A stretch of 42,196 nucleotides of DNA from Rhodospirillaceae bacterium (GTDB lineage Bacteria; Pseudomonadota; Alphaproteobacteria; Thalassobaculales; Thalassobaculaceae). Below are positions 17,713-41,035 of this stretch, one piece after another (position 1 is the stretch's first letter; every line of letters starts with the position of its first letter). Position numbers and translations under genes: made by a program. The stretch is from contig PANE01000029.1 in the NCBI GenBank assembly GCA_002708305.1, positions 48,307 through 90,502 of the forward strand, in the 5' to 3' direction. Under the pieces are notes generated by a model, which had not been told where the DNA came from, did no database searches, and saw only the letters and a list, made by a program, of their open reading frames with translations.

Positions 17713-17843
17713 TTTTATCACAACAATTACACCATAGTATTTTAAAATGATGGATCTTACGTGTATTGTCATATAGCTAATGATTGAATAAAAGCGAATT
17801 TTATATTCATCTTCAAGTTTTTTATTTTTATCTGGATTTTGTA

Positions 17844-19898: not shown

Positions 19899-19900
19899 TG

Positions 19901-21571: not shown

Positions 21572-21599
21572 AAAAGGTAATTAGTTGGTTATAACGTTA

Positions 21600-22358: not shown

Positions 22359-22500
22359 GAATACTCTCCCAATAATTAGTGGTTATTACAACTTTGCAGA
22401 CAGTATTAGATAGAATAAACTGAATACCGTCTATTGCCCAAATTAGTAATCGGACTTTTAGGCAACAGAAAATTATGTGGCTGGAATAACGTTGAGCTCA

Positions 22501-22529
22501 TTGGATTAAAAATCCGGTGCATTTATAAA
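22501..22529 (+). promoter_or_regulatory. Candidate promoter for the Gfo/Idh gene pair
   Basis: TTGGAT at 22501-22506, a 17-base spacer, and TATAAA at 22524-22529 form a possible sigma70 promoter ending 23 bases before the ATG at 22553. The -10 is strong (five of six); the -35 keeps only the TTG. The start would lie very close to the ribosome site, so the leader would be short. Confidence 0.3.
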
Positions 22530-22552
22530 ATAAATTTAGGTATAGGGTTGGT

Positions 22553-23608: not shown

Positions 23609-23611
23609 GCT

Positions 23612-24493
23612 ATGTATTTAACTGGATTTGCTGATGAGGTATCCCAGGATCTTGACAAACAAATAGCAGTCACTAAAGAACTTGGGTGGAATGCGATCGA
23701 AGCGAGGAGTGTATGGAGTACCAATATTCATGATATTGGTGAGATGGAGTTTGATCGTATTTGCCAATCATTAGATGAGTCACGGATTCGAATTAATTGT
23801 TTTGGCTCGACAATTGCTAACTGGAGTAAGCATATTAACGATCCTTTTAGCGACACATTAGCAGAAGTTGAGAGGGCTATACCGCGAATGCAAGTACTGA
23901 ATACGAAACTAATTCGTATTATGAGTTACGCTCGATGTCCTGGTGAAGAGCAGCATAAGGAAGAAAGGTTTAAACGTTTACGAGAAATTTGTTCGAGATT
24001 TATTGATGCTGGTATTACTCCAGTACATGAAAATTGTATGAATTTTGGGGGCATGAGTTGGCATCATAGCCTTCAATTGATAGATAATGTTCCTGGCCTT
24101 AAACTAGTATTTGATACTGGAAATCCGATTATATCCCAAGATTATTCTAAACCGACGGGTGAAGCGCAAGACCCGGTTGAGTTTTTCAAAAATATTAGAG
24201 AACATGTTGCGTATGTACATATTAAAGACGCTCGAATGGAAAAAAGTGGCGAAACATTTTTGTATCCAGGAGATGGGGATGCGTGCATACCTCAAATTCT
24301 TCAAATGTTATTTGCTAGTAATTATCAAGGGGGGATATCAATTGAGCCCCATATGGCCTCAGTTTTTCATGATCCTAATGCGGATAGCGTCCCAGTAGAA
24401 GAGAGTTACAAAATTTACCTGGAGTATGGGAGAAGGCTGATGTCTTTACTGAATGGTATAGGTTATACACCCTCTCTGTATGATGAAGCCTAG
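23612..24493 (+). CDS. TIM-barrel sugar phosphate isomerase/epimerase family protein
   Basis: The 293-residue protein belongs to the xylose-isomerase-like TIM-barrel family (AP_endonuc_2 fold). Its members isomerise, epimerise or dehydrate sugars and inositol derivatives with a divalent metal. Visible metal-site segments include PVHENCMNFGG near 136, LVFDTGNPI near 164, the YVHIKDAR block near 196 and ISIEPHMAS near 240, which together supply Glu/Asp/His ligands. GAGG in the end of the upstream gene can serve as ribosome site. It is coupled to the Gfo/Idh gene, three bases apart. The two probably act in sequence on one polyol or sugar acid; inositol catabolism is a possibility only. Confidence 0.87.
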   Translation: MYLTGFADEVSQDLDKQIAVTKELGWNAIEARSVWSTNIHDIGEMEFDRICQSLDESRIRINCFGSTIANWSKHINDPFSDTLAEVERAIPRMQVLNTKLIRIMSYARCPGEEQHKEERFKRLREICSRFIDAGITPVHENCMNFGGMSWHHSLQLIDNVPGLKLVFDTGNPIISQDYSKPTGEAQDPVEFFKNIREHVAYVHIKDARMEKSGETFLYPGDGDACIPQILQMLFASNYQGGISIEPHMASVFHDPNADSVPVEESYKIYLEYGRRLMSLLNGIGYTPSLYDEA

Positions 24494-24650
24494 AAAAGTA
24501 TCCAAGCAGATAGATAATTTTGAGAAATGGTTATTGGGTTATTTAGTAACCTTGTGCACATCGATGTAATGATGTGTTTAATTAAATATGCATGTATAGA
24601 AAAGTAGATTTTTGGGACTAAACATCTCAATCAGTACAAGGAGTTCTTAG

Positions 24651-26459
24651 GTGATTGCAGATACTGGTGTTACTTTGGCAGAAAAAAAACTAACAGTAGA
24701 TTTAGCCTATAAGTGGGCACAAAAATTTAATTTAGCAATACAACAAGAAAATGTTGACGAGCTCGGTCTTCTATTCATGGATGAGTGCCATTGGCGTGAT
24801 CTTCTTGCTTTGACGTGGAGAATTGAAACTTTTAGCGGTCATCAGTTAGTACAAGAGAACATTTTAACTGCTGCGAAGTCACAGGGGATGAAAAATTTTC
24901 AAATCGATGAACGTCGCAGTCGTCCAAAACTAGTTGAAAGAGCGGGGCAGGAGTGTATAGAGGCGTTTGGTCATTTCGAAACTAATGTAGGTAAAGGTGT
25001 ATCTGTTTTCCGTTTATCCAGAGACGGAAAACTAGCTTGGACATTCATGTCTGCCTTAGAAGAATTATTTGATTCAAAACCAGATGTGTCTGATGACATA
25101 CCAGACGTAGGAACTGACCTTGCTGCTCCAAATTGGTTAGATTTACGACGAGCAACTCAGGAATTTTCAGATCGGGACCCAGAGGTTTTAATTGTGGGTG
25201 GTGGGTATGCTGGTTGTACATCCGCTGCAGAACTGGGTAGGCTTGGAATAGAGGCATTAGTTGTTGATACAGAAAAACGGGTTGGGGATAATTGGCGGCT
25301 ACGTTATCACAGTCTAAAACTACATAATCGCACCCCAATTAATCATTTTCCACACATGCCATTTCCAGAGACGTTTCCTGGATATATTCCAAAGGATAAA
25401 TTAGCTAACTGGATTGAGTCTTATGTTGATGCGATGGAAATAAATTTTTGGACCAATACTAGGTTTGAGAGTGCTGAATATGATTTTGACTCACAAACTT
25501 GGTTTGCCCAATTAACACTGAAAGGCGGTGTTAAACGAACGTTAAAGCCAAAGCATATTATTATGGCGACGAGCGTAAGTGGCACACCAAATGTGCCAAT
25601 GCTGCCAACTCTGGACAAATTTTCTGGTACGGTTATTCATTCTAGCCAATTCAAAAATGGTGAGGACTGGAATGGAAAGGAAGTAATAGTTTTTGGAACT
25701 GGTACTAGTGCTCATGATATCTGTCAAAACCTATATGCTAACCAAGCCAAAGTTACTATGGTTCAGAGAAGCCCAACTATGGTTGTAAATGTAGACCCAA
25801 GTGCGCAACTTTATGATGGATTGTATCTAAAGCCGGATGGAAAAACAAAATCGGCAGGCTCGCTGGTAGAATTAGATCAGATTAATTCTTCGTTTCCTAT
25901 GGCAGTGACAAAGCGCGCTCATCAGATTATCACTCGTAGAGTGAAGGAAATAGATGCACCGTTATTAAATGGTCTTGAAGCTGCAGGCTTTAAATTAGAG
26001 TTTGGTGAAGATGATACTGGGTGGCCACTAAAATACCGGCAACGAGGAGGCGGATATTATTTTAACGCAGGTTGTTCAGATTTAATAGCTGCCGGGAAAA
26101 TAGATCTTATTCAATTTGACGATATTAAAAATTTTACGAATGATGGACTTGTCAAAATAAATGGTGAGAGCTTAACCGCAAAACTGATAGTATTAGCTAC
26201 CGGCTATAAAGGACAAGATTACCTTACAAAGGAGCTTTTTGGCGCAAAGGTGGCAGAGAGAACTGGAAAGGTTTGGGGCGTAAACCCAAAAACACAGGAA
26301 CTTAACAACATGTGGACCGTAACCGGACAACCAGGGCTATGGTATACAGCTGGATCACTTTCTCAATGTCGTATTTACTCAAAATATTTGGCGATGCAAA
26401 TTAAAGCAGTTCAAATGGGACAGGCACTTAATCGACCATTCAAAAATAATATTGGATAA
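24651..26459 (+). CDS. Flavin-containing monooxygenase with N-terminal NTF2-like domain
   Basis: The 602-residue protein is a two-part fusion. Residues 1-140 look like an NTF2/SnoaL-type cone fold. From about 178 on it is a class B flavoprotein monooxygenase: FAD motif VGGGYAG at 182-188, the FMO fingerprint FSGTVIHSSQF near 323 (FxGxxxHxxxF), the NADPH motif FGTGTSAHD near 343, and the late LATGYKG block near 518. Such enzymes oxygenate soft nucleophiles (N, S) or carry out Baeyer-Villiger reactions. The start is GTG at 24651, well placed after AAGGAG. The upstream 157 bases hold no gene. The gene converges with the DapA-family gene. The substrate is unknown. Confidence 0.9.
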   Translation: MIADTGVTLAEKKLTVDLAYKWAQKFNLAIQQENVDELGLLFMDECHWRDLLALTWRIETFSGHQLVQENILTAAKSQGMKNFQIDERRSRPKLVERAGQECIEAFGHFETNVGKGVSVFRLSRDGKLAWTFMSALEELFDSKPDVSDDIPDVGTDLAAPNWLDLRRATQEFSDRDPEVLIVGGGYAGCTSAAELGRLGIEALVVDTEKRVGDNWRLRYHSLKLHNRTPINHFPHMPFPETFPGYIPKDKLANWIESYVDAMEINFWTNTRFESAEYDFDSQTWFAQLTLKGGVKRTLKPKHIIMATSVSGTPNVPMLPTLDKFSGTVIHSSQFKNGEDWNGKEVIVFGTGTSAHDICQNLYANQAKVTMVQRSPTMVVNVDPSAQLYDGLYLKPDGKTKSAGSLVELDQINSSFPMAVTKRAHQIITRRVKEIDAPLLNGLEAAGFKLEFGEDDTGWPLKYRQRGGGYYFNAGCSDLIAAGKIDLIQFDDIKNFTNDGLVKINGESLTAKLIVLATGYKGQDYLTKELFGAKVAERTGKVWGVNPKTQELNNMWTVTGQPGLWYTAGSLSQCRIYSKYLAMQIKAVQMGQALNRPFKNNIG

Positions 26460-26516: not shown

Positions 26517-27398
26517 TCAAATTAGATTCAAGTTCTTTAGAGCATTTCGCACGGTTTCCTTTTGCTCTTCGGTTGCAGGAGATGTGGGTTTTCGAGCATG
26601 TCCTGTTTCTAATCCTTGAAGTTGCTGGGCATACTTACAAAGTGAGGGCATATTATCCACACCAATGGCGTCCCAAAGAGGCATCAGGCGTTCGTGTAGA
26701 TCGCGGGCAGTTTCCCAGTCTTTATCTATGACGGCATTCCATAATTTGACTGAAGGCCCTGGAGCGGCAGTGAGTATTGCTGCAATGGCGCCAGGAGCAC
26801 CAAGTTGATAGGACGAGAGTAATAAGGCATCTACAGCGCTAAAAATAAGATTTTTTGGTTTGGCTCTTCGTATTAAGTCAGCAAATAATTTCATGTCGCC
26901 CGCACTCTGTTTTACTCCAAGCACACCAGGCACTTCGTCCATAATTCTCAAAAGTAAATCAGGAGAAAGATAACACCACGGGACAACATTGTAGATGAGT
27001 ATAGGGACATTACATTCATCATATATTTCTCTAAAATGCTGAATCATTGCGTCGTCGTCAGGCCGAAAAAGATAAGATGGGGGTGTAATTTGAAGAGCTG
27101 CTACTCCCAAACTCTTTACACTTTTTCCGCGTGCCGCGACTTCTGAAGTTGAGTTAGCTATGATTCCGGCTACTAAAGGTATTCTTCCATTTAGAGCTTC
27201 TGCAGTTGTTTGCATAAGGTTATAATATTCGTCTCTATTTAATACGTGACCTTCCCCGGTACTCCCGCCAGCTGCTAGTCCGTGAACACCATTTTTAATT
27301 AACCATTCGACCTGTGGAGCAACTAATTCAAGTTGAAGTTCTCCATCCGCTGAAAAAGGTGTTGTAAATGGTGAAATTATACCCCGCAAAACGCCCAT
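26517..27398 (-). CDS. DapA/DHDPS family aldolase or synthase
   Basis: This 293-residue TIM-barrel enzyme has the residues of the dihydrodipicolinate synthase/N-acetylneuraminate lyase family: the GGSTGEG carboxylate-binding loop at 44-50, Tyr136 in IYNVVP, and the Schiff-base Lys163 in GVKQSAGD. These match E. coli DapA Tyr133 and Lys161. Nothing places it in lysine synthesis; family members here often cleave or dehydrate 2-keto acids such as keto-deoxy sugar acids or hydroxyproline-derived compounds. The ATG at 27398 follows a GAGA. It is divergent from the FAD/Fe-S dehydrogenase, so it may share regulation with that operon. Confidence 0.88.
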   Translation of the reverse strand: MGVLRGIISPFTTPFSADGELQLELVAPQVEWLIKNGVHGLAAGGSTGEGHVLNRDEYYNLMQTTAEALNGRIPLVAGIIANSTSEVAARGKSVKSLGVAALQITPPSYLFRPDDDAMIQHFREIYDECNVPILIYNVVPWCYLSPDLLLRIMDEVPGVLGVKQSAGDMKLFADLIRRAKPKNLIFSAVDALLLSSYQLGAPGAIAAILTAAPGPSVKLWNAVIDKDWETARDLHERLMPLWDAIGVDNMPSLCKYAQQLQGLETGHARKPTSPATEEQKETVRNALKNLNLI

Positions 27399-27620: not shown

Positions 27621-27656
27621 TAAATGTATCAGAGTAATTTAAACGGGTTCATTTTT

Positions 27657-30557
27657 ATGGCGTCTGCCAAAAGTTCTTTTAATAATTCCGATTTGTTTTC
27701 CCGTCTTTCAAAAAATATCGAAGGAGATGTTCTATTTGATCCTTTCAATCGCGGCAGATATTCTACGGATGCCTCAATTTATCAAGTTGACCCGATTGGA
27801 GTGGTGTTACCAAAAACTGAGCAAGATCTCGTTCGAGCTGTTGAAATTTCTGCGGATGCCAATACACCAATATTAGCCAGGGGTGGAGGAACAAGTCAGT
27901 GTGGGCAGACTGTTAATGAGGCAGTGGTAATCGATTGTTCCCGATACTTAAATAAAATCATCGAGTTTAAGGAAAAAGAAAGATCAATTACGGTGCAGCC
28001 GGGTTTAGTTTTAGACCACTTAAACGCATTCTTGAAACCTTATGGCTTGTTTTTTCCAGTTGATATTTCAACCGGATCTCGAGCTACTATTGGTGGTATG
28101 ACTGCAAATAACTCATGTGGCGCTAGATCTATACATTATGGGATTATGGTTGATAACGTTCGATCTATAGATGCTTTTTTACCCATGGGTGGACACTTCA
28201 AGTTTTCAGATACCCCGAACAACATTGATGAATTAGAAGAAAGACGGGGCTATAAGCAAATAGTAAAACAAGTGAGAGAGATTGCAGAACGCGAAAAAAA
28301 CGAACTGGATAAGAGATTCCCAAAGTTAAAGCGACGCGTTGGAGGTTATAATCTCGACACCGTAGATCCTATTGGTCACAACATGGCGAAAATGTTGGTT
28401 GGATCAGAAGGAACACTTGCTACGTTTAAGAGTATTGAATTACAGCTCCATGACATACCAAAGCACAGAGTTATGGGCGTCTGCCATTTTCCAAACTTTT
28501 ATGCAGCTATGGATGCCACACAGCATATCGTAAAGCTCAATCCCGTCGCTGTTGAGCTAATTGATCGAACAATGATTGATTTAGCCAAGGATATACCAAT
28601 TTTTCGCCCTGTGGTTGAAAGCTTCGTTAAAGGAGAACCCGGGGCTCTTCTATTAGTTGAGTTTGCAAGTGAGCAATTTGAATGTTTACCCCGGAAATTG
28701 AAAGAGTTAGATCAATTAATGGGGGAGCTAGGATACCAAGATGCCATAGTAGAAGCATTGGATCCAAGTTTTCAGGCTCGGATCACGGAGGTTAGACAGC
28801 AGGGTCTAAATATAATGATGTCTATGAAGAGTGCTGGAAAACCGGTTTCTTTTATAGAAGACTGTGCCGTTCCGCTGGAGGATTTAGCCGAATATACAGA
28901 CAGATTAACCCAAGTTTTCGCTAAACACGGAACTAGTGGAACCTGGTATGCGCATGCTTCCGTTGGATGTTTGCATGTTCGGCCGATACTCAATATGAAA
29001 CAATCTACCGATGTGAAAAAGATGAGAGCAATTGCCGAAGAAGCATTTGAGATGGTTCGGGAATATAAAGGATCGCATTCGGGGGAACACGGGGACGGAA
29101 TTGTTCGCTCAGAATTTCATAGAGATATGTTTGGCAATCGACTGGTGGATGCTTTTGGTGAAATTAAAAATATTTTTGACCCAAAGGGATTATTGAATCC
29201 TGGTCGGATCGTCAAACCGCCAAAAATGGATGACCGATCTTTATTTCGTTATACTCCGGATTATAAACCAATGGACATAGAACCAATTCTTGATTGGTCT
29301 GATAGTAATGGTTTTCTAGGTGCTGTGGAAATGTGTAATAATAACGGTGCATGCCGTAAAATCGCTGGCGGTGTTATGTGTCCCAGCTACCGTGTCACAA
29401 AAGAAGAGCAGCATTTAACCAGAGGTCGAGCAAATACTCTGCGGTTAGCCTTATCGGGGCAGTTAGGGGAGGACGCATTTTCGAGCAATGAGATGGCGGA
29501 AACGATGGATCTTTGCGTGTCGTGTAAGGGGTGTCGAAGAGAGTGTCCAACAGGGGTTGATATGGCACGAATGAAGGTTGAGGTTAAACATGCCCTAGCA
29601 AAAAAAAATGGTTTATCATTTAGAGATCGCTTAGTGGGCTTTTTGCCTAGATATGCTGAAGTAGCTTCCCGCTTTCATTTTTTGAGTAACTTGAGAGATA
29701 ACATCCCTTTTGCGCCGTGGCTTTCAGAAAAAATCTTAGGGTTTTCAGCAAAACGAGCGCTGCCAATCTGGGATGCTAACCCTTTCAGAGGATCTGAAGC
29801 GTCAATAGAGCCGATGCAGAAAAATGTTGTTCTTTTAGCGGATACTTTCAATACCTACTTTGAGCCTGACAACTTAAGGGCAGCACTGAGAATACTTGAG
29901 GCAGGTAATTACCATGTTCATATCTTAGAACCAGAAAATTACAGTGGGAATCGACTGTGCTGTGGACGTACGTATTTGTCAGCAGGTTTGGTGGAGGAGG
30001 CGAAAAAAGCTTCCTCCGCAATGATTGCAGCTTATAAACCATATGTCGATAAGGGAATAAAGATAGTTGGTTTGGAACCGTCCTGTTTGCATACTTTGAG
30101 AGACGAATTCCTTGCAATGAATCCAGGTTCAGATGCAGAAAAGTTGGCAGATAGTGCATTGATGCTGGAAGAGTTCTTAGTTCAAGAGCAAGAAAAAGGA
30201 AGTTTAGAAATAGATTTTTCGCCGATGAATAGAAAAGCGCTTATTCATGGGCACTGTCACCAAAAAGCCTTTGGGGGGATGGGCGCTGTTCAATCGGCTT
30301 TAGGTTTAATACCGGAACTTAAGGTAGAATTAATTGACTCAAGTTGTTGTGGTATGGCGGGCTCCTTTGGTTATGAGGTGAACCATTATGATGTATCGAT
30401 GGCTATGGCCGAATTAGACTTACTCCCAGCAATTAGGGATACTGATTACCAAACCTTGATTGTTGCAGATGGGACTAGTTGTCGACATCAAATTAAAGAT
30501 GGCGTTGGCAGGGAAGCGAAGCATGTTGCCAGAATACTGGAGATGGCCCTTGGGTAA
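27657..30557 (+). CDS. Fused FAD-binding and Fe-S 2-hydroxyacid dehydrogenase (GlcD-GlcF/YdiJ type)
   Basis: The 966-residue protein joins an FAD-linked oxidase to an iron-sulfur electron-transfer module, as in YdiJ and fused glycolate oxidases. The N-terminal PCMH-type FAD domain has LARGGGTSQCGQ near 75 and GGMTANNSCGARSIHYG near 145; the FAD C-terminal domain includes HSGEHGDGIVRSEFH near 471. The Fe-S part has CNNNGAC near 559 with MCPSY, CVSCKGCRRECPTG near 618, and two CCG-domain cysteine pairs (RLCCGRTY near 765, SSCCGMAGSFGYE near 896). Substrates in the family are D-lactate, glycolate and D-2-hydroxyglutarate. An in-frame ATG at 27624 exists; 27657 is preferred. The PhyH-like gene overlaps or follows directly. 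Confidence 0.92.
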   Translation: MASAKSSFNNSDLFSRLSKNIEGDVLFDPFNRGRYSTDASIYQVDPIGVVLPKTEQDLVRAVEISADANTPILARGGGTSQCGQTVNEAVVIDCSRYLNKIIEFKEKERSITVQPGLVLDHLNAFLKPYGLFFPVDISTGSRATIGGMTANNSCGARSIHYGIMVDNVRSIDAFLPMGGHFKFSDTPNNIDELEERRGYKQIVKQVREIAEREKNELDKRFPKLKRRVGGYNLDTVDPIGHNMAKMLVGSEGTLATFKSIELQLHDIPKHRVMGVCHFPNFYAAMDATQHIVKLNPVAVELIDRTMIDLAKDIPIFRPVVESFVKGEPGALLLVEFASEQFECLPRKLKELDQLMGELGYQDAIVEALDPSFQARITEVRQQGLNIMMSMKSAGKPVSFIEDCAVPLEDLAEYTDRLTQVFAKHGTSGTWYAHASVGCLHVRPILNMKQSTDVKKMRAIAEEAFEMVREYKGSHSGEHGDGIVRSEFHRDMFGNRLVDAFGEIKNIFDPKGLLNPGRIVKPPKMDDRSLFRYTPDYKPMDIEPILDWSDSNGFLGAVEMCNNNGACRKIAGGVMCPSYRVTKEEQHLTRGRANTLRLALSGQLGEDAFSSNEMAETMDLCVSCKGCRRECPTGVDMARMKVEVKHALAKKNGLSFRDRLVGFLPRYAEVASRFHFLSNLRDNIPFAPWLSEKILGFSAKRALPIWDANPFRGSEASIEPMQKNVVLLADTFNTYFEPDNLRAALRILEAGNYHVHILEPENYSGNRLCCGRTYLSAGLVEEAKKASSAMIAAYKPYVDKGIKIVGLEPSCLHTLRDEFLAMNPGSDAEKLADSALMLEEFLVQEQEKGSLEIDFSPMNRKALIHGHCHQKAFGGMGAVQSALGLIPELKVELIDSSCCGMAGSFGYEVNHYDVSMAMAELDLLPAIRDTDYQTLIVADGTSCRHQIKDGVGREAKHVARILEMALG

Positions 30558-31461
30558 AAAAGAAGCAGTGATCGATGGTTCTGTTGTTCCAGAATATATA
30601 TTAGGCGAGTTGAATCGTACTTCGTTCCAAGAGAGCAGTGGCGACGCCCTTCGTTTAAGACTTGAAAAGGATGGTTATATTTTTTTTCCAGAATTGATGG
30701 ATATAAAGGAGATCCAAGAAGCGCGGAATGAGATCTTTAAGCGGCTGTTCGAAGTAGATGAACTAGAAGAGCCTTATTATGAGGGTAGGTTTTCTTATCG
30801 GTCTCGAAGAGATGAATTGTACAATGATAGGGGAGCATTCTGGGAAACGGTAAGTAATGGAAAATTATTACGAAATGTTTCCAATGGACCTGTTTTAAAG
30901 AGAGTGACATCTCAAATTTTTGGAACTCCCACGGTTGGATTTGATTACTTGTTTTTGCGGGCAGTGCCTCAGGGTAGGTTTACGCATCTGCATTGTGATT
31001 CTGGTTTTTTTACTCGTGGTACTAATGAAGTATTGACGTGTTGGATTGCTTTCACAGAAATTCCTCTGGATAATGGGCCGTTATTTATTGTTGAAGGTTC
31101 GCACAAATTTATTGATATACATAAAAGTTTCAAAGACTTCGACGTTGTTTTAAATAAAGAACAAAAGGCATCAATAGATGAACATCCAGCATCATTTGCA
31201 AGTAAAAGGAATGCTAAGTTATTGACGACAACGTTTACTCCAGGAGATGTTTTAATATTTGGCATGGATACGTTGCATGGCGCTTTTGAGAACTACGCTG
31301 CAGATAATCGCATTCGATTGACTTGTGATATTAGATATCAACCTCGCAATAAACCCAAGGACCCTCGGTATTTTGGTGTTAACCCGGGTGGAACAACAGG
31401 AGCCGGATATGGAGAGCTCAATGGAGCGAGACCTCTCATAGAAGATTGGCATATCCGATAA
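30523..31461 (+). CDS. Phytanoyl-CoA dioxygenase (PhyH) family protein
   Basis: PhyH-family enzymes are Fe(II)/2-oxoglutarate oxygenases that hydroxylate acyl-CoAs, ectoine, phosphonates and other small molecules. The protein of about 312 residues has the HxD pair in HLHCDSGFF near 152-156, the distal histidine in DTLHGAFENY near 252, and an arginine in the following IRLTCDIRYQP strand for 2-oxoglutarate. The start is uncertain. ATGs at 30499 and 30523 lie inside the end of the dehydrogenase gene, and a GTG at 30568 lies just beyond it. All choices imply tight coupling with that gene. The aminotransferase follows after 29 bases. Its substrate is likely related to the acid handled by those two enzymes. 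Confidence 0.85.
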   Translation: MLPEYWRWPLGKKEAVIDGSVVPEYILGELNRTSFQESSGDALRLRLEKDGYIFFPELMDIKEIQEARNEIFKRLFEVDELEEPYYEGRFSYRSRRDELYNDRGAFWETVSNGKLLRNVSNGPVLKRVTSQIFGTPTVGFDYLFLRAVPQGRFTHLHCDSGFFTRGTNEVLTCWIAFTEIPLDNGPLFIVEGSHKFIDIHKSFKDFDVVLNKEQKASIDEHPASFASKRNAKLLTTTFTPGDVLIFGMDTLHGAFENYAADNRIRLTCDIRYQPRNKPKDPRYFGVNPGGTTGAGYGELNGARPLIEDWHIR

Positions 31462-31490
31462 ATCATTAAAGAAGCGCATAGGAGTGATCA

Positions 31491-32660
31491 ATGAGCCATA
31501 AAGCCGGACCGCATTTTTTACAAATTCCTGGACCAAGTAATGTCCCGGGTCGAATTCTAAGAGCGATCGAACGTCCAACGATTGATCACAGAGGTCCCAC
31601 ATTTCAGGTTTTGGCGTGCGAAGTCCTTGAGAAGATAAAACCTATATTTAAGACTGTTGAACCTGTGGTTATATTCCCCTCTTCTGGGACTGGGGCATGG
31701 GAGGCAGCCCTTGTAAATACGCTTTCCCCCGGTGATAAAGTGTTGATGTATGAAACGGGTCAATTTGCTAATCTTTGGGTGGAGCTAGCAACCCGTATTG
31801 GCTTGGAAACAGAAGTAATCAGTGGAGATTGGCGATTTGGTGTTGACAGCAATGTAATAGAGGAACGGTTAAGAAATGATGCAGGCCATAAAATCAAGGC
31901 GGTTTGTATTGTTCATAATGAGACATCCACAGGTGTGACATCAAAAATAAAGCCCGTTCGAGATGCGATTGATAAGGCAAAGCATCCGGCACTTTTCATG
32001 GTTGATACTATATCGGGATTGTGTTCTGCGGATTATCGACATGATGAATGGGGGGTTGACGTAACAATTTCAGGATCTCAAAAAGGTTTAATGCTGCCGC
32101 CAGGCCTTGGTTTTAATGCAGTTAGTAAAAAAGCAGTGGAGGCATCAAAAAGTTCCAAATTAATAAGATCATATTGGGACTGGGGTAGTCAGCTAGCAAA
32201 CAATCCGTCAGGTAACTTTCCATATACGCCTGCCACTAATCTACTTTATGGCCTCGTGGAAGCCTGTGATATGTTGATGGACGAAGGATTAGATAATGTT
32301 TTCTCTCGCCATGAACGTCATGCAGAGGCAGCACGGCGTGCGGTCAAAGCTTGGGGGCTGGAGATACAATGTGCAGAGCCAACTGAATATAGTCCAGTAC
32401 TCACAGGCGTTATAATGCCAGAGGGGCACGATGCCGATGCATTAAGAGCAATCATTCTCGATAAATTTAATATGTCGTTGGGTTCAGGATTAGGGAAAAT
32501 TAAAGGAAAAGTTTTTCGAATAGGGCATTTAGGTGATTTTAATGATCTAATGCTGATGGGTACGCTTTCTGGAGTTGAAATGGGCTTAACCGTGGCAGGT
32601 GTGCCTCACAAAAGCGGTGGAGTTCAGGCTGCTATGGAATTCTTGACTGGAAATGCATAA
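31491..32660 (+). CDS. Class V aminotransferase, serine-glyoxylate type
   Basis: This PLP enzyme matches the serine-glyoxylate/alanine-glyoxylate aminotransferase group. The 389 residues include the N-terminal IPGPSNVPGRIL block at 12-23, PTIDHRGPTF near 29, SSGTGAWEAAL near 64 for the PLP phosphate, VDTISGL near 171 with the aspartate that pairs with the PLP nitrogen, and the Schiff-base Lys198 in ISGSQKGLMLPPG. The PYTPATNLLYGL segment near 245 is typical of the serine-glyoxylate branch. AGGAGTG precedes the ATG at 31491 at good spacing. It would convert glyoxylate or a related 2-oxo acid to the amino acid and ends the FAD/Fe-S-PhyH operon. Confidence 0.88.
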   Translation: MSHKAGPHFLQIPGPSNVPGRILRAIERPTIDHRGPTFQVLACEVLEKIKPIFKTVEPVVIFPSSGTGAWEAALVNTLSPGDKVLMYETGQFANLWVELATRIGLETEVISGDWRFGVDSNVIEERLRNDAGHKIKAVCIVHNETSTGVTSKIKPVRDAIDKAKHPALFMVDTISGLCSADYRHDEWGVDVTISGSQKGLMLPPGLGFNAVSKKAVEASKSSKLIRSYWDWGSQLANNPSGNFPYTPATNLLYGLVEACDMLMDEGLDNVFSRHERHAEAARRAVKAWGLEIQCAEPTEYSPVLTGVIMPEGHDADALRAIILDKFNMSLGSGLGKIKGKVFRIGHLGDFNDLMLMGTLSGVEMGLTVAGVPHKSGGVQAAMEFLTGNA

Positions 32661-32847: not shown

Positions 32848-34719
32848 ATGGATGAAAAACGGCTGATCGAGGTTGATGACCTCCGAGTTCATTTCCCATT
32901 GGAAGATGAAACAGTAAAAGCTGTGGATGGCGTTTCCTGGCACATTGATAAAGGGGAGACCCTAGCAGTTGTCGGCGAGTCTGGATCTGGTAAATCGGTT
33001 ACCGCAATGTCTCTAATGCGTCTGACCGACTATGCTGGTGGCAAAATTATGTCAGGAACGGTTAATTTCCGCCGGAAGAACGAAAATATTATTGATTTAG
33101 CTAGTTCACCACAGGATGTGATGCGGGATATTCGTGGAAACGATATCTCGATGATTTTCCAAGAGCCGATGACGTCATTGAACCCAGTTTTTACAGTTGG
33201 AATGCAAATAGCTGAAGCGATTGTACTTCATCAAGGAAAAACAGAGCAAGAGGCTCTCGAAATGTCTTTAGAGATGCTCAAACTTGTTAGGATTCCTGAA
33301 CCAGAAAAACAATTAACACAATATCCGCATCAACTATCTGGCGGGATGCGGCAACGTGTGATGATTGCAATGGCTCTGAGTTGCAGGCCATCGTTATTAA
33401 TCGCCGATGAACCAACTACTGCGTTAGATGTAACGATACAGGCTCAAATTCTAGATCTAATCAAAATGCTTCAACGGGACATCGGTATGTCTGTGATGTT
33501 TATTACACATGATATGGGAGTTGTAGCTGAGGTGGCAGACCGCGTGGTTGTAATGCTCCGCGGTGAAAAAGTTGAAGAAGGCCCAGCACTCGAGGTTTTC
33601 CATAATCCCCAACATCCATATACCAAGGCTTTATTATCAGCAGTTCCAAAGCTTGGGAGTATGACAGGTAGAGTGATGCCTGCAAAATTTGCTAATGTTG
33701 ATGTGAGCCGAGCTGAGGGTGATGAAGTCAAAGAATCTCAGGGTGGACCAGAACTACTAGATGTTAAAGACACCGTTCGTCGTGATGCGCCACCTATCCT
33801 TGAAGTCAAAGGCCTGACAACACGTTTTGATATTCGAAAAGGAATATTTGGCAGTGCAACTGGCCGAATTCATGCGGTAGAAGGGGTTGATTTTTCTCTC
33901 CAGCCAGGAGAAACACTCGCGCTTGTTGGAGAATCAGGGTGTGGTAAGTCTACAACTGGTAGAAGTATCATCCGACTTACACAACCTACTCGTGGGAGTG
34001 TAATTTTCGAGGGTCAGGAATTAACTGGACTTAGTGGGAAAGACATGAGGCCTTACCGTCGACAAATGCAAATGATCTTTCAAGATCCATTTGCTTCTTT
34101 GAATCCCCGCATGACCGTCGGTGATGCAATTGCAGAGCCGATTGAAGTCCACGGGATAGCTAAGGGAAATGACGCGCAAGATCGTGTTGCAGAGCTTCTA
34201 CGTCGTGTTGGGCTTGAACCAGAGCATGCTGCCAGATATCCTCATGAGTTCTCTGGTGGCCAGCGTCAGCGTTTATGTATTGCTCGTGCTTTAGGTTTAG
34301 AGCCAAAACTTATAATAGCAGACGAGGCTGTTTCTGCGCTGGACGTTTCTATTCAAGCTCAAGTAGTGAACTTGATGATGGAGTTGCAGGAAGAGTTTGG
34401 GTTATCTTATCTGTTTATCAGTCACGATATGGCTGTTGTTGAGAGAGTAAGCCACCGTGTTGCGGTAATGTATTTAGGGGAAATAGTAGAATTAGGCTTG
34501 AGAGGACAGGTTTTTGAAAATCCTCAGCATCCATATACGAAAAAGCTAATGGCGGCGGTACCTGTTGCAGACCCAAAACTTAGAAAAACCGAATTAAATT
34601 TAATGACGGATGAAATACCAAGTCCATTAAAGCCTGTTGGTTACGAACCGCCAGAGATAGATTTAATAGCCATTGATGAGGGTCATTTTGTAAAACCATT
34701 TGAAGGAATGCCCAAATAA
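32848..34719 (+). CDS. Double ATPase of a peptide/opine-type ABC importer (DppD-DppF fusion)
   Basis: The 623-residue protein contains two complete ABC ATPase modules in one chain, as in GsiA. Module one has Walker A GESGSGKS at 43-50, signature LSGGMRQR near 164 and Walker [11 protein letters not shown] near 182. Module two has GESGCGKST near 360, FSGGQRQRL near 467 and [10 protein letters not shown] near 489. Both carry the C-terminal NPQHPYTK segment typical of the oligopeptide/dipeptide branch. GGAGG lies ten bases before the ATG at 32848. It should energise the two permeases encoded on the other strand at 36.3-38.2 kb. The substrate may be a peptide, opine or other small molecule. Confidence 0.93.
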
Positions 34720-35357
34720 TTTTCTTTAAATATGTTAAATATTTTTTAGGACTATTATCGGTTGTGGTTTTTGCGCAACCAGGTTTAGCTGAGCGGCCAT
34801 GGGCAACCCCAGCTCAGGTGGAAGGTCCATACTATCCTCGCTCTAAACCTGCCGAGAAGGATTGGAATTTAATACAAACTGCGCGCGAGAAAAATGAAAT
34901 CGCTGGCGGTATTCCTCTGCAGCTGGAAGGTCAAATCTTTGATAGTAACGGCTTACATTTAAATAATGCAGAAATAGAAATCTGGCAGTCAGATTATCAA
35001 GGGTTCTATAAACATCCCAAGGCTCCCGGGAACAAGAAATTTGATCCACGATTCCAGGGGTTTGGTAGGGTGGTGACCAACCTAACTGGTAATTACCGAT
35101 TTTTGACGATTGTGCCGGTTGTTGAGAAAAAGCGGCCTCCCCATATTCATGTGAAAATCTTTTATAGAGGTCAAGAAACTTTAACGACACAGTTGTATTT
35201 AAAAGACCACCCCGAAAATAACAGCGATGGTCTGTTATCTTTAATGCTTTATCCAGGACAACAAAAACTATTAATAGATTTAACAGATGCGATATTAGAG
35301 AATGGAGTTAATGGGAAAAAAGCTAGGTTTGACTTTGTCGTCACAACAAAATTCTAA
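34719..35357 (+). CDS. Exported intradiol-dioxygenase-like protein, unusual start
   Basis: This resembles secreted protocatechuate 3,4-dioxygenase-like proteins. TPAQVEGPYYP near the mature N terminus, the beta-sandwich core, an equatorial-type Tyr in QGFYKHP and the two histidines of RPPHIH (codons 35142-35150) are visible. The axial-type tyrosine expected about six residues before the first of these histidines appears as Glu (codon 35124-35126). The first ordinary start, GTG at 34764, falls inside a hydrophobic segment. Reading upstream in frame from 34719 gives FFKYVKYFLGLLSVVFAQPGLA, a good signal peptide, with ATT (34719) or ATA (34716) as the only start-like codons and AAGGA at 34703-34707. 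The ATPase stop overlaps this site, so coupled translation is likely. Confidence 0.72.
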   Translation: MFFKYVKYFLGLLSVVVFAQPGLAERPWATPAQVEGPYYPRSKPAEKDWNLIQTAREKNEIAGGIPLQLEGQIFDSNGLHLNNAEIEIWQSDYQGFYKHPKAPGNKKFDPRFQGFGRVVTNLTGNYRFLTIVPVVEKKRPPHIHVKIFYRGQETLTTQLYLKDHPENNSDGLLSLMLYPGQQKLLIDLTDAILENGVNGKKARFDFVVTTKF

Positions 35358-36238
35358 TTAGACTCGTTTAGCCATTTTTTCTTATCAAAAGCAACGTGAT
35401 CACCAAAAAAGTCTATGCGGTTCTTAACATCGATTAAATCTTTTGGGTGGTAGGTGGTTGATCCGACCATCAATCTTACAATATTTTTCTGGGTTTCTAG
35501 CCATTTTTCTGCCGGCTGGAGCGTACTTTGCCGCACTGTTATGTCAAAAATATAATAGTGATGCGGAATAATTATTGCGGCATTTAGGCGATCTATTATT
35601 TCTTTTGCATGCGGAAAGCTGATCACATGTTGTGAATCGTCGATCGGCAGTAGCACAATATCTACCTTCCCAATGGCATCCCAAACTTCCTCAGGAGGGT
35701 TATGCCTATTATCGCCCCAAGCAAGAATTCGTAACCCTCCAGTTTCAATTAAAAGGAGGCAGTGATCCCAGGAACGTGGGTTGTTAGGCGGCGTGATATC
35801 AATATTATCAAATTCTTTTATTATCCTCTTAAAATCATAAACGGCAGCGGAAGAGTCTGTTGCATGTTTGTCCGCTATCCCCGTTATTTTTATGTCTCCA
35901 AAGTTATATGTCCCAATAAGCCGGTCCAATAGGACATGGGCATCTAACAAGTGCAAAGCATCATGGTCAAAATGGGCATGGCTCGATACTCCTATATCGA
36001 CTTTTGTTATTGGAAAGTCGTTAAAGTACCAATCCCACTTTCTCGTCGGATGGTTCCGCCATGGGTCAATCATCAGAGTAATACCAGCTGGGGATGTTAT
36101 CTGAAAAGCTGAGCTCCCATAGTAATCAAGGTTAACTGAGCCGGGGCCGCCATTCATGGAGGTCCGCTGCAACTCCATCATTCGATTATGATTAGAGGCC
36201 ATTCTCCAACCGGATAACCCAGCGTCTATATTCCCCAT
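35354..36238 (-). CDS. MBL-fold metal-dependent hydrolase
   Basis: The product of about 294 residues is a metallo-beta-lactamase-fold protein. The zinc motif HxHxDH is H87-A-H89-F-D91-H92, preceded by MIDPWRNHP near 56 and followed by LLPIDDSQHVISFPHA near 210 and IIPHHY near 232. It is closer to the UlaG/NAPE-PLD-like group (lactonases and phosphodiesterases) than to beta-lactamases. The open frame begins at a TTG at 36283, but the ATG at 36238 follows AGGAAAG at good spacing. It is the last gene of the minus-strand binding protein-permease unit, and its stop overlaps the stop of the converging dioxygenase-like gene. It may process the imported compound. Confidence 0.82.
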   Translation of the reverse strand: MGNIDAGLSGWRMASNHNRMMELQRTSMNGGPGSVNLDYYGSSAFQITSPAGITLMIDPWRNHPTRKWDWYFNDFPITKVDIGVSSHAHFDHDALHLLDAHVLLDRLIGTYNFGDIKITGIADKHATDSSAAVYDFKRIIKEFDNIDITPPNNPRSWDHCLLLIETGGLRILAWGDNRHNPPEEVWDAIGKVDIVLLPIDDSQHVISFPHAKEIIDRLNAAIIIPHHYYIFDITVRQSTLQPAEKWLETQKNIVRLMVGSTTYHPKDLIDVKNRIDFFGDHVAFDKKKWLNESN

Positions 36239-36254
36239 AAGCACTTTCCTATAT

Positions 36255-36281
36255 GAAGCCTGAGCATTTAATTCAGGCTTC
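36255..36281 (-). terminator. Stem-loop between dppC-like gene and MBL hydrolase gene
   Basis: GAAGCCTGA at 36255-36263 pairs perfectly with TCAGGCTTC at 36273-36281 around a nine-base loop. It lies between the permease stop at 36328 and the hydrolase ATG at 36238. No T-run follows in the minus-strand direction, so it is more likely a processing or partial attenuation hairpin than a full terminator. Confidence 0.45.
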
Positions 36282-36327
36282 AATAATAGATGTTCTTTTT
36301 ATTAAACTAACTGAACGAGTTAGCAGA

Positions 36328-37245
36328 TTAAGTTTGAGATCTTAGTTTAGGATCCATAACATCGCGAACAGCATCACCAAATAAATTGAAGCCAAATACA
36401 GCTAAAGTAATAGCTACACCCGGCCAGATTGGTACCCATGGCGCGCTCTCAGCATATTCTTCTGCACCACCTTGAAGCATTAGGCCCCACGCTGCAGTTG
36501 GTTCTTGCACGCCCATGCCTAGATAAGAAAGAGACGCCTCCGTAAGAATCGCTTGGCCGACAAAAGCGGTTAGCATTATCAAGAATGGAGCCATCACGTT
36601 TGGAACCATATGACGGAGAATAATTCGCGAGTGACTATATCCAACTGAGCGTGCAGCATCGATATATGGAAGTTCACGGAGTGCTAGGGCACTCGATCTA
36701 ACCACACGAGCACACCGCGGTATAAATGGTATCGTGATGGCTATAATGACATTTTCTAATCCAGTACCGAAAATAGAGACTATTGCAAGCGCCATAATCA
36801 CTAATGGAAATGCCATGAATATATCCATTATCCGCTGGAATATTAAATCTACATAGCCACCAAAATAAGCGCTTCCAACACCCAATACGAGACCAATGAA
36901 AGCCCCCACAAAAGAAGCAGTAAAGCCCACTAAAAGTGCTGTTCGGGCGCCATATATCATACGCGATAACTGGTCTCGGCCAAAGGAATCTGTTCCAAAA
37001 TGGAATGTCTGGCCAGTAGTTGCGTCGACAGTACCGGGAGGTGACAACATGTATTCGAAGTTTTCCATCTCTGGATCATATGGTGCTACCTGGTCGGCAA
37101 AGAGTGCTCCAAAAGCCATTATTATGATTACAATAAAACCAGCAGATCCCAGGGGCTGCTTACGCAGCATTCTTAAGATGCCGTCTAAAATAGTTTTCTT
37201 TTTTGGAAGAATAAACTCTTCGCTTGGTATTTCTGAAGTTGCCAT
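36328..37245 (-). CDS. Peptide/opine-type ABC transporter permease (DppC-like)
   Basis: This 305-residue inner-membrane permease is of the BPD_transp_1 type. It begins with a cytoplasmic stretch and one membrane segment (about 33-52), then a periplasmic part with FHFGTDSFGRDQLSRMIYGAR near 81, which is the classic DppC/OppC block. A core of about five helices follows, and the ATPase-coupling EAA loop reads DAARSVGYSHSRIILRHMVPN near 196. AAGGGGC precedes the ATG at 37245, overlapping the end of the dppB-like gene, so the permeases are translated together. It pairs with the DppB-like subunit and the double ATPase. Confidence 0.94.
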   Translation of the reverse strand: MATSEIPSEEFILPKKKTILDGILRMLRKQPLGSAGFIVIIIMAFGALFADQVAPYDPEMENFEYMLSPPGTVDATTGQTFHFGTDSFGRDQLSRMIYGARTALLVGFTASFVGAFIGLVLGVGSAYFGGYVDLIFQRIMDIFMAFPLVIMALAIVSIFGTGLENVIIAITIPFIPRCARVVRSSALALRELPYIDAARSVGYSHSRIILRHMVPNVMAPFLIMLTAFVGQAILTEASLSYLGMGVQEPTAAWGLMLQGGAEEYAESAPWVPIWPGVAITLAVFGFNLFGDAVRDVMDPKLRSQT

Positions 37246-37257
37246 TAGCTTTGCCCC

Positions 37258-38229
37258 TTAAGAGTAACGAATGCGAGGGTCAAGCCACGCGTACATTAAA
37301 TCGACTATAAAATTGACCATTACAAAAATAAACACAACCAACATAACTAGGGACTGCGTTAGGGTGTAGTCAGCTTGGGTAACAGATTCAACAAAAAGTT
37401 TTCCAACACCATTTAGGTTGAAGACTTGCTCCGTAACAACCAGGCCACCCATGAGAAAAGCAAACTCGATGCCTATAACAGTGACGACAGGTAGCATTGC
37501 ATTCTTCAAAGCGTGTTTATTAATAATCACTTTCTCGATTAAGCCTTTAGCCCGAGCGGTTCTAACATAATCTTCTTTTAAGACATCAAGCATAGCTGAC
37601 CGTGTCATTCGGGTAGCTACAGAAGAGTATCTATAACCGGTTGCTAACGCTGGCCAGATAAGCTGGGATAGGTTATGCATGGGATCTACCCATATTGGTT
37701 TGTAAAATATTGGCGGCATCCACGGGACTCCGCTCCATGCTTGTGTTCCTATCAACAAACCAAGAATTATCACTATACCTAGCCAGAATGATGGCATTGC
37801 TATACCCGCAATACTAACCGTGCGAACAATATAATCCACCCATGTGTTTTGTTTTGCTGCAGAAATAACGCCTAACGGGACTGCGATAATTACAGAAACA
37901 AATGTAGCCATAATTGCAATCTGTAGTGACAATGGAAAACGAATGGCTATTTCGTGGGTCACGTCCTGTTGGGTCCACATGGATTTACCAAGGTCAAATG
38001 TTATAAATCCTGAAATATAATCGTAAAACTGTTTGATTTTTGGATCGGAAATACCCAGAAGCTCCTGGCACTGTTTAATCTGCTCAGGATCGGCATATCC
38101 ACCTTCACCGCCAAATTTAAGCATACAAACATCGCCAGGGATTAATCTGAGCAATAAGAATACTACAACTGCAGCACCAAAAAGGGTTGGGAATAACATA
38201 AGCATTCGCTTGACTATATAGGTATACAT
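37258..38229 (-). CDS. Peptide/opine-type ABC transporter permease (DppB-like)
   Basis: This 323-residue permease has the DppB/OppB N terminus MYTYIVKRMLMLFPTLFG, LLRLIPGD near 26, six membrane segments and the coupling EAA loop DYVRTARAKGLIEKVIINKHAL near 214. The GLVVTEQVFNLNGVGKLF block near 262 is typical of this subunit. AAGGTCG lies six bases before the ATG at 38229. It sits between the binding-protein gene and the DppC-like gene, all on the minus strand. A strong hairpin separates it from the binding-protein gene and may lower its expression relative to it. Confidence 0.95.
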   Translation of the reverse strand: MYTYIVKRMLMLFPTLFGAAVVVFLLLRLIPGDVCMLKFGGEGGYADPEQIKQCQELLGISDPKIKQFYDYISGFITFDLGKSMWTQQDVTHEIAIRFPLSLQIAIMATFVSVIIAVPLGVISAAKQNTWVDYIVRTVSIAGIAMPSFWLGIVIILGLLIGTQAWSGVPWMPPIFYKPIWVDPMHNLSQLIWPALATGYRYSSVATRMTRSAMLDVLKEDYVRTARAKGLIEKVIINKHALKNAMLPVVTVIGIEFAFLMGGLVVTEQVFNLNGVGKLFVESVTQADYTLTQSLVMLVVFIFVMVNFIVDLMYAWLDPRIRYS

Positions 38230-38314: not shown

Positions 38315-39961
38315 TTACTCTACACCCTGCCTTTTCTTTTCTGCTGAATCAATCCAGATATTATCAAGCGACTGATTTAGATAGTGACTTGGTGCAATCT
38401 TCCAGCCTTTAACATAAGACCGGTGTGGGTTGATTTTATACCACCAGAGAGTAACTACCTGGGAAGACAAGTCGTTTAAAACGCGTTTTTCATAAGCGCG
38501 TAATAGCGGTGTTTGCTCTGCAGTAGTACCCGCTTTTAGGAGTTCACTGTATAATGACTCCAGTTTGGCATCCTCAAAATTGGCATAGTTATTACCAGCT
38601 GATGGTAGAAACTTTGATACATCAGCAATTGGGTTAACGATGGACTGGCAGTTAAAGTCAACTGACACATCGAAATCGCCTTTTTTACGCAGTGATGCAT
38701 AAAATGGAGTAGTTGGTTTAACAACTTGGTCAACCTTCATACCCGCTTTTTTCCACTGTCCAAGCAACCACGTACCAACAATTTTGTATGGTTGATCAAC
38801 GCCTCTATTCAAGAAAGTGAACTTAAGGCCTGATTGTCCGGCCTCCTTCAGTAATTTCTTGGCCTGAGCTCTTGATGCCGCTACATCGTCCGAATAACCG
38901 GCTATGTTAGCTTTGAGTTCTGACATTGGTGTTGCTAAAGGATGCTGAGGGAAAACAATTCCACCAGGTGTTTTAACAATAGCGATATTGGATAAGTATT
39001 TTGACCCAGACTGGCGGTCAACCGCTAATGTCAACGCTCTTCGAACCTTTGGATCATCGAATGGTTTAACTTCATGGTTAGGTGATGCTAACAATACGCA
39101 GTTCCAGTCACTTTCCTGCACTTTAATTTTATCCCCAAGCGCTTTTACAAGATCATCTCTTGCTTTTGGCGGAAAACCACGAAATTCAATATCGGCACGA
39201 CCACCACGAATGGCTTGCAACCTTACCGACATTTTTGGTGCGGCAAGAGCTGTATATGTATCCAAGTATGGACGGCCTTTATGATGATAGTTTGGGTTCT
39301 TTTTCCCATGTACATGGCTTCCTTGAACGTGTTCAACAAAGCTGAAAGCTCCAGTACCATTTATGTTTTTTTGATGCCATGTGTATCCATTTGCATCCAA
39401 GTCTTTCTTGGAGTAAATGAAATTAAACGGCATTGCCACTGCTGGAATAAATGTTCCACTTGGATGCTTCAATTTAAATACAAGTGTTTCTGCGTCTGGT
39501 GTTGTTATTGACTCAACCATCTTAAAGTAAGCTTTACGATTGGAAGCTATACCTTTTGGTGGGTTAACAACTTTATCAAAACTCGCTTTGATGTCTGCTG
39601 ATGTTAGTGGTGTTCCATCATGGAATTTAACGCCAGTACGAATTTTGAACGTGAATTTCGTTCCACCTTCGGTACCAGCTGGAACCGAACCAACACATAG
39701 ATCACAAACAAAGTCTGTTGGTGATGCCGGGTTGTCAGGGTTTTCTCTAATCAAAAGACTGTAAAATGGACGAATTGGATGGATCATTCCGAATGTTGAC
39801 TCAATATGTCCATCATAAGATGGGATTTTTGAACCAACAACGATATTTAAGTTTCCACCATATTCTGGTGATGCATGCGATGCTGCCTTGGCTGAAATGG
39901 CGCCAAACGAAAATGTTGCCCCCAATACAGCGACCGCAAGCTTTGGTGCGATACCCTTCAT
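38315..39961 (-). CDS. ABC transporter substrate-binding protein, family 5 (DppA-like)
   Basis: The 548-residue periplasmic protein captures the ligand for the importer. A signal peptide is clear: MKGIAPK, a hydrophobic core, and AKA-A near residue 26 as cleavage site. The family 5 (SBP_bac_5) signature FKIRTGVKFHDGTPLTSADIKASFDKV lies near 105-131, and VRRALTLAVDRQ appears near 303. AAGGAGAG stands just before the ATG at 39961. It is the first gene of the minus-strand unit. Ligands for the family include dipeptides, nickel, glutathione and opines; nothing here decides among them. The length is normal. Confidence 0.94.
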   Translation of the reverse strand: MKGIAPKLAVAVLGATFSFGAISAKAASHASPEYGGNLNIVVGSKIPSYDGHIESTFGMIHPIRPFYSLLIRENPDNPASPTDFVCDLCVGSVPAGTEGGTKFTFKIRTGVKFHDGTPLTSADIKASFDKVVNPPKGIASNRKAYFKMVESITTPDAETLVFKLKHPSGTFIPAVAMPFNFIYSKKDLDANGYTWHQKNINGTGAFSFVEHVQGSHVHGKKNPNYHHKGRPYLDTYTALAAPKMSVRLQAIRGGRADIEFRGFPPKARDDLVKALGDKIKVQESDWNCVLLASPNHEVKPFDDPKVRRALTLAVDRQSGSKYLSNIAIVKTPGGIVFPQHPLATPMSELKANIAGYSDDVAASRAQAKKLLKEAGQSGLKFTFLNRGVDQPYKIVGTWLLGQWKKAGMKVDQVVKPTTPFYASLRKKGDFDVSVDFNCQSIVNPIADVSKFLPSAGNNYANFEDAKLESLYSELLKAGTTAEQTPLLRAYEKRVLNDLSSQVVTLWWYKINPHRSYVKGWKIAPSHYLNQSLDNIWIDSAEKKRQGVE

Positions 39962-40321: not shown

Positions 40322-41035
40322 ATGGATGTTAATAATATAAAAGCCCTTGTATTTGATGTTTTTGGTACAGTTGTTGATTGGCGAACCAGTATAGCTTCAG
40401 AGGCTAAACAATGTTTGTCTAAAAAAGGGTATGAATTGGATTGGGTGTTATTTGCTGACAGTTGGCGAGCGAAGTATCAACCAGCTATGGAGAGAGTTCG
40501 AACTGGTGGTCGCGGTTTTGTTCGTCTTGATATTCTTCATATGGAAAACCTAATTGAAGTTTTAAAAGATTTTGATATCAAAAGTGTGACAGAAACGGAA
40601 CTGAACTATCTAAACCGGGCCTGGCACAGACTACTTCCTTGGTCGGATTCTGTGCCTGGTTTATTGCGATTGAAAAAGAAGTTTATAATAGGAACAATGT
40701 CGAACGGTAACGTTGCGTTGATGGTGAATATGGCAAAAAATGGAGGCCTCCCATGGGATGTCATATTGGGAGCGGAGCCAGCACAAGCATATAAGCCAGA
40801 ACCAAAAACCTATTTAACGGGTGTTGATTGGCTTAATTTAAAGCCTTCTGAAGTTCTGATGTGTGCGGCCCATAACGCTGATCTAGTAGCTGCTGGTGCT
40901 CAAGGCCTAAAGACAGCCTTTATTGCCCGGCCAACAGAATATGGTCCAAATCAAAAACACGATTTTGAGGCGGAGCACGATTTCGATTATATATCGGAAA
41001 ACATGCTTGACCTGGCAGATAAACTCGGTTGTTAA
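40322..41035 (+). CDS. HAD hydrolase, type II haloacid dehalogenase-like
   Basis: The 237-residue protein has the HAD motifs of the L-2-haloacid dehalogenase group: FDVFGTVVDWR with nucleophile Asp12, the SNGN block near 123, the lysine of AYKPEPKTY near 155 and AAHNADLVAAG near 181. In this group the nucleophile attacks the alpha carbon of a 2-haloacid, or the enzyme acts as a phosphatase. The residue two after the nucleophile is Phe, not Asp, which favours dehalogenase-like over phosphatase chemistry. The ATG at 40322 follows AAAGAGA. The second MmgE/PrpD gene begins 11 bases after the stop, so the two form one unit. Confidence 0.86.
   Translation: MDVNNIKALVFDVFGTVVDWRTSIASEAKQCLSKKGYELDWVLFADSWRAKYQPAMERVRTGGRGFVRLDILHMENLIEVLKDFDIKSVTETELNYLNRAWHRLLPWSDSVPGLLRLKKKFIIGTMSNGNVALMVNMAKNGGLPWDVILGAEPAQAYKPEPKTYLTGVDWLNLKPSEVLMCAAHNADLVAAGAQGLKTAFIARPTEYGPNQKHDFEAEHDFDYISENMLDLADKLGC

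Follow-up and report, generated by a model that had tools for sequence, protein, structure and literature searches.

What do a 2-hydroxy-acid dehydrogenase, a PhyH-type oxygenase and a class V aminotransferase accomplish when they are encoded side by side? The question is posed by three genes in a 42,196-nucleotide stretch of the genome of an alphaproteobacterium (Rhodospirillaceae bacterium, GTDB family Thalassobaculaceae; assembly GCA_002708305.1, contig PANE01000029.1), which we refer to, in its full length, as the window. A preliminary description of this DNA had read the trio as a possible route from an unactivated acid to an amino acid (by 2-hydroxylation, oxidation and transamination) or as glycolate/glyoxylate salvage. 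We regard this pathway as one admissible and partly supported way to read a lineage-specific extension of a two-gene module that is itself more widespread: the conserved unit is the dehydrogenase-aminotransferase pair, and the oxygenase is a late insertion in part of the family. Tentatively (at a probability of about 0.42), the locus is best explained by a module that makes an amino acid out of a 2-hydroxy acid and is fed by the oxygenase and/or a dehalogenase.

Three overlapping or closely spaced genes

The trio consists of three successive open reading frames on the + strand, positioned as first described, and Pfam domains agree with the protein types and the tight packing then named:

27657..30557, + strand: FADdh, a fused FAD-linked (flavin adenine dinucleotide) and 4Fe-4S/CCG 2-hydroxy-acid dehydrogenase of 966 amino acids (Pfam, nearest solved structures, residues)
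30550..31461 (about), + strand: PhyH, a PhyH-family Fe(II)/2-oxoglutarate oxygenase (Pfam, kept overlap, residues, predicted structure)
31491..32660, + strand: AT5, a class V aminotransferase of the serine/aspartate-glyoxylate group, 389 amino acids (Pfam, BhcA model score, 6pk1 match)

FADdh has an alternative ATG at 27624. The mechanical reading frame of PhyH begins at 30460; its likely start is the TTG at 30550 (giving 303 amino acids), which is identical in two congeneric genomes and makes the gene overlap the FADdh stop codon (TAA, 30555-30557). Since this start-stop overlap is kept across genera (it was also found in two genomes of a second genus), FADdh and PhyH are probably translationally coupled. 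PhyH and AT5 are separated by 29 nucleotides, and AGGAG precedes the AT5 ATG. In the several genomes compared all three frames stay open and are kept at 60-90% identity across genera, and thus they are not chance reading frames. A promoter and terminator scan produced fewer matches than in shuffled sequence and was uninformative.

The conserved unit is a dehydrogenase-aminotransferase pair

Conservation of the trio in related genomes, which the preliminary description had named as one of two points on which its proposal would stand or fall, was found in the window's genus (g1: G002, G003 and partly G001) and in a second genus of the same family (g7: G010, G019 and G026). The search that it suggested, for the trio and its conserved neighbours, also recovered a second instance of the trio, in a different family (G122), and a downstream block reaching to ~41035 (with importer and dehalogenase genes) that had escaped mention.

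Beyond the family it is FADdh and AT5 that travel together. Among plasmids, 19 FADdh relatives stand at 52.7-56.2% identity and all others at no more than 38%; each of these 19 close records also carries an AT5 of the 63-68% clade, at a distance of 0.1-2.4 kb by the listed positions. The alphaproteobacterial class sample gave FADdh within 1.5 kb of AT5 in 22 of 30 AT5 loci, and the pair was likewise encountered in Burkholderiaceae, Halomonas, one actinomycete and streamlined genomes of 1.2 Mb, besides many alphaproteobacteria. Frequent neighbours are GntR regulators (often), TRAP importers, enoyl-CoA (coenzyme A) hydratase and family III CoA-transferase. Targeted searches of the open-access literature returned nothing on the FADdh-AT5 pair.

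As a separate observation, three loci (L132, in the 1.2 Mb genome G133, L088 and L138) combine the pair with a TRAP importer and a family III CoA-transferase, and those of L132 and L088 also hold enoyl-CoA hydratase; no name was found for this recurrent cluster.

Late and repeated recruitment of PhyH

The sister genomes G028 and G005 lack PhyH, and in them FADdh directly adjoins AT5. As the AT5 tree has G005, and then G028, branching outside g1+g7, PhyH was most simply gained after these lineages had split off. The second trio (G122) has the order AT5 - enoyl-CoA hydratase - FADdh - PhyH, its FADdh frame being broken in the draft genome; since starred branches of the PhyH tree separate its oxygenase from that of the window's family, PhyH joined the pair at least twice. 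By chance, adjacency of FADdh and PhyH would be expected ~0.03 times in the 19 loci outside the family and was seen once (G122), a rough figure given that loci within a clade share history and are not independent. The trio was rejected as a phylum-wide unit, in view of the single occurrence outside the family and the sparsity of PhyH relatives: with the window's own genome included, matches at E up to 1e-15 came from 15 of 385 genomes in the class sample and 5 of 398 in the phylum sample. No trio was found on plasmids, whose PhyH relatives have at most 31% identity.

Two further arrangements involve PhyH. In G011 (L032, 8040-9219) all that is left of its partners is the C-terminal 34 residues of FADdh on one side and the N-terminal 41 of AT5 on the other, followed by unrelated genes, a remnant produced by either rearrangement or misassembly. 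A second AT5-like aminotransferase (45% identity) shares ~16 kb of contig C11 of G000 (46137-62400; L054, L055) with a PhyH-like gene and a gene resembling that of D-2-hydroxyglutarate dehydrogenase.

The protein itself scores 66.1 bits against PF05721 (gathering cut-off 22), and its iron triad (H148, D150 and H243; HxD...H) and 2-oxoglutarate-binding R256 are invariant in all 20 relatives aligned. The predicted structure (pLDDT 92) has as top fold match PtlH, a small-molecule hydroxylase, which is also the nearest solved relative. The known PhyH substrate is a CoA thioester rather than a free acid, and phytanoyl-CoA 2-hydroxylase proper works on acyl-CoA at C2. Membership of the CsiD family was not found, PF05721 being the only match.

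We consider it doubtful that PhyH has a substrate unconnected with those of FADdh and AT5 and is linked to these enzymes by transcription alone. Its dispensability in G028 and G005 would suit such a role, as would its faster divergence within the family (60-72% identity, compared with 81-90% for AT5 and 73-86% for FADdh) and the presence of eight PhyH-type matches in the window's genome; yet the overlap with FADdh has been kept across two genera, and the same dehydrogenase was joined a second time in G122.

Candidate substrates of the pair

FADdh carries the Pfam domains FAD_binding_4, FAD-oxidase_C, Fer4_8 and (weakly) CCG, as a GlcD-like module fused to a GlcF-like one. Its closest solved relatives are the mitochondrial D-lactate dehydrogenase LDHD and enzymes of the LctD/GlcD type; H433, H440, E477 and H478 do not vary among orthologues and line up with LDHD, so that both domains (FAD_binding_4 and FAD-oxidase_C) and residues (HxxxxxxH ... 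EH) are those of the GlcD/LDHD superfamily. Of the earlier label 'YdiJ/GlcD type', the second half is borne out by these features, whereas the score on YdiJ, the best NCBIfam match and likewise an FAD/Fe-S fusion of ~1000 amino acids, is 513.8 bits, far below the equivalog cut-off of 1350. The YdiJ enzymes of E. coli and Pantoea are strictly specific for D-2-hydroxyglutarate (PMC9504171).

FADdh shares its GlcD-type FAD module and GlcF-type Fe-S module with glycolate oxidase GlcDEF, but it is a single polypeptide without GlcE, while GlcDEF is built of separate subunits; the best GlcE model score in the window's own genome was 83 bits (cut-off 284), and FADdh was not assigned to GlcDEF. A GlcE-like gene (>230 bits) occurs in 11 of the 15 genomes that carry the pair, which weakens both FADdh as a plain GlcDEF stand-in and the salvage route of the preliminary description. 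Glycolate is not a safe general answer, because most other pair-carrying genomes have a GlcE-like protein; in the window's genus, where GlcE was not found in three incomplete genomes, FADdh could serve glycolate.

AT5 matches Aminotran_5 at 76.4 bits (cut-off 21.5), and its best solved match is the serine-glyoxylate aminotransferase 6pk1, in keeping with the type first assigned. Relatives of AT5 use glyoxylate. BhcA of the beta-hydroxyaspartate cycle is the best NCBIfam model, but AT5 reaches 447.6 bits against an equivalog cut-off of 650, which a true BhcA (Tateyamaria plasmid, positive control) passes at 729 bits; PucG, PhnW and pyridoxamine-pyruvate aminotransferase scored much more weakly. 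The window's genome (92% complete) encodes a BhcC-like protein at 49%, BhcD was not found in it, and bhcB was not searched for. The pair lies ~4 kb from bhcABCD in Tateyamaria, and AT5 has urate or ureide genes nearby in both Aminobacter and Defluviimonas; these gene associations point to glyoxylate as a candidate substrate of AT5. Purine breakdown is a source of glyoxylate (PMC11323563).

Proposed route and aldolase-linked relatives

In the direction and step order that we infer, the starting compound would be a 2-hydroxy acid, either imported or derived and probably of D form or achiral. FADdh would oxidise it to the 2-oxo acid, with the electrons leaving through FAD and the Fe-S clusters and probably entering the respiratory chain, and AT5 would transaminate the product to an amino acid, glyoxylate to glycine being the likeliest last step. 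In the window's family, 2-hydroxy acids may be supplied through hydrolysis by HAD-II, a type II haloacid dehalogenase encoded downstream, and in some genera through C-H hydroxylation with 2-oxoglutarate by the inserted PhyH, with a predicted Dpp/Gsi-type importer linked to the module. The dehydrogenase-to-aminotransferase step fits because the FADdh-AT5 linkage is strong, and the catalytic residues of PhyH and FADdh are intact.

The proposed logic resembles that known from CsiD-LhgO: there, a 2-oxoglutarate oxygenase hydroxylates glutarate beside a carboxyl group, and the resulting 2-hydroxy acid is taken to the 2-oxo acid by a quinone-linked flavoprotein encoded by the adjacent gene (PMC6265302, PMC5974017). 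The protein families differ, being here PhyH (PF05721) and an FAD/Fe-S fusion; the window's locus also has a class V aminotransferase, and its importer is of another kind.

Several points weigh against the module as we have drawn it. The substrates of the enzymes are predictions throughout; eight of the 30 class AT5 loci have no FADdh within 1.5 kb (in L106 it is slightly further away); and PhyH is not a constant member, so that, given its absence from G028 and G005, 'unactivated acid to amino acid' can be at most a lineage-specific extension. Finally, PhyH relatives elsewhere have a pyruvate-type aldolase gene of the HpaI or DHDPS family within 1.5 kb in 8 of 19 loci, from four clades, where 0.33 would be expected (a rough probability, as loci within a clade are not independent). 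With aldolase-linked relatives, alpha-hydroxylation as first suggested is not the sole reading of PhyH, and other hydroxylation chemistry may apply. The window has such a neighbour of its own:

26517..27398, - strand: DHDPS-family aldolase/lyase, divergent from FADdh (PF00701; adjacent in g1; membership of the system uncertain)

PhyH hydroxylation and FADdh oxidation might instead yield a 4-hydroxy-2-oxo (or beta-hydroxy) compound, which the DHDPS-family protein would split (e.g., into pyruvate and glyoxylate) and whose glyoxylate AT5 would aminate. We judge this quite unlikely: the divergent gene is a feature of the window's genus, but none lies near the trio in G010 or G122, and the window's protein has ordinary DapA-type enzymes as its nearest relatives and clears no specific cut-off. 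A more explicit version, improbable in our view, would begin with C4 hydroxylation, by PhyH, of a 2-hydroxy or 2-oxo acid that the cell has imported; FADdh would then form the 4-hydroxy-2-oxo acid, the aldolase release pyruvate and glyoxylate, and AT5 make glycine. If true, it would be an undescribed catabolism, an oxygenation-started bacterial parallel to the final steps by which mammals degrade hydroxyproline.

At two other loci (L136, 9044-11034; L151, 5417-7398) a PhyH relative overlaps a threonine-aldolase-type gene (PF01212); genes for a DAO-type flavoprotein and, divergently oriented, an HpaI aldolase lie close by, and the arrangement looks like an oxygenase-aldolase operon. Upstream in the window (17784-26459) lies a catabolic-looking run of g1, conserved in G003 and not seen beside the trio in G010, which comprises a hydantoinase/oxoprolinase-like pair, an SDR, a Gfo-type dehydrogenase, a xylose-isomerase-like barrel and an N-terminally extended FMO-like oxidase.

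The downstream block and a dehalogenase

Wherever contigs are long enough, the trio is followed in g1 and g7 by the same conserved genes:

32854..34719, + strand: fused ABC ATPase of a Dpp/Gsi-type importer (profile matches; syntenic in g1, g7 and G028)
34764..35357, + strand: intradiol-dioxygenase-like protein, possibly exported (PF00775; syntenic in g1 and g7)
35354..36283, - strand: metallo-beta-lactamase-fold hydrolase, start uncertain (PF13483; syntenic in g1 and G010)
36328..37245, - strand: importer permease, OppC/DppC type (sequence reading; syntenic)
37258..38229, - strand: importer permease, OppB/DppB type (sequence reading; syntenic)
38315..39961, - strand: importer substrate-binding protein of the GsiB/NikA/OppA superfamily (syntenic in g1; 59-70% identity in G010 and G028)
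40322..41035, + strand: HAD-II, type II haloacid dehalogenase (TIGR01428; kept in g1, G010 and G028)

The intradiol-dioxygenase-like gene has no other aromatic-ring genes beside it, and its product may act outside the cytoplasm, since the G010 orthologue has a twin-arginine-like N-terminus. In g7 (L033, 5805-6890; L035, 3820-4905) an extra gene on the opposite strand stands between AT5 and the ABC gene, and would encode a 2-oxoglutarate-Fe(II) oxygenase-like protein with an additional N-terminal region.

HAD-II exceeds the equivalog cut-off of TIGR01428 (151.8 against 125.4 bits), and its closest solved structures are the haloacid dehalogenases 3umg and 3umc; 3umg has been used as a control for defluorination, and relatives convert fluoroacetate into glycolate (PMC12184663). 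As a predicted L-2-haloacid dehalogenase it could in principle make 2-hydroxy acids, although the type II family also holds epoxide hydrolases (its solved relatives include the cis-epoxysuccinate hydrolase 8wmt). These features would also serve a route without PhyH, in which HAD-II acts on 2-haloacids (e.g., haloacetate to glycolate, or an L-2-haloacid to a D-2-hydroxy acid), FADdh forms glyoxylate or another 2-oxo acid, AT5 forms glycine or another amino acid, and PhyH is a side enzyme. G028, which lacks PhyH, retains HAD-II and the importer genes together with the pair, and the apparent lack of GlcE in the window's genus would suit glycolate as the intermediate. We nevertheless hold this route to be unlikely: a Dpp/Gsi-type importer would be an odd carrier of haloacetate, no HAD-II turned up at FADdh-AT5 loci beyond the family, and the overlap of PhyH with FADdh would be left unexplained.

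Implications

Under the favoured reading, a 2-hydroxy-acid-to-amino-acid module fed by PhyH and/or HAD-II, naming the substrate of FADdh-AT5 would annotate a common gene pair and might also reveal how bacteria in the environment regain glycine, or a different amino acid, from 2-hydroxy acids. The inserted oxygenase offers a natural case in which such a module may have acquired a further entry substrate.

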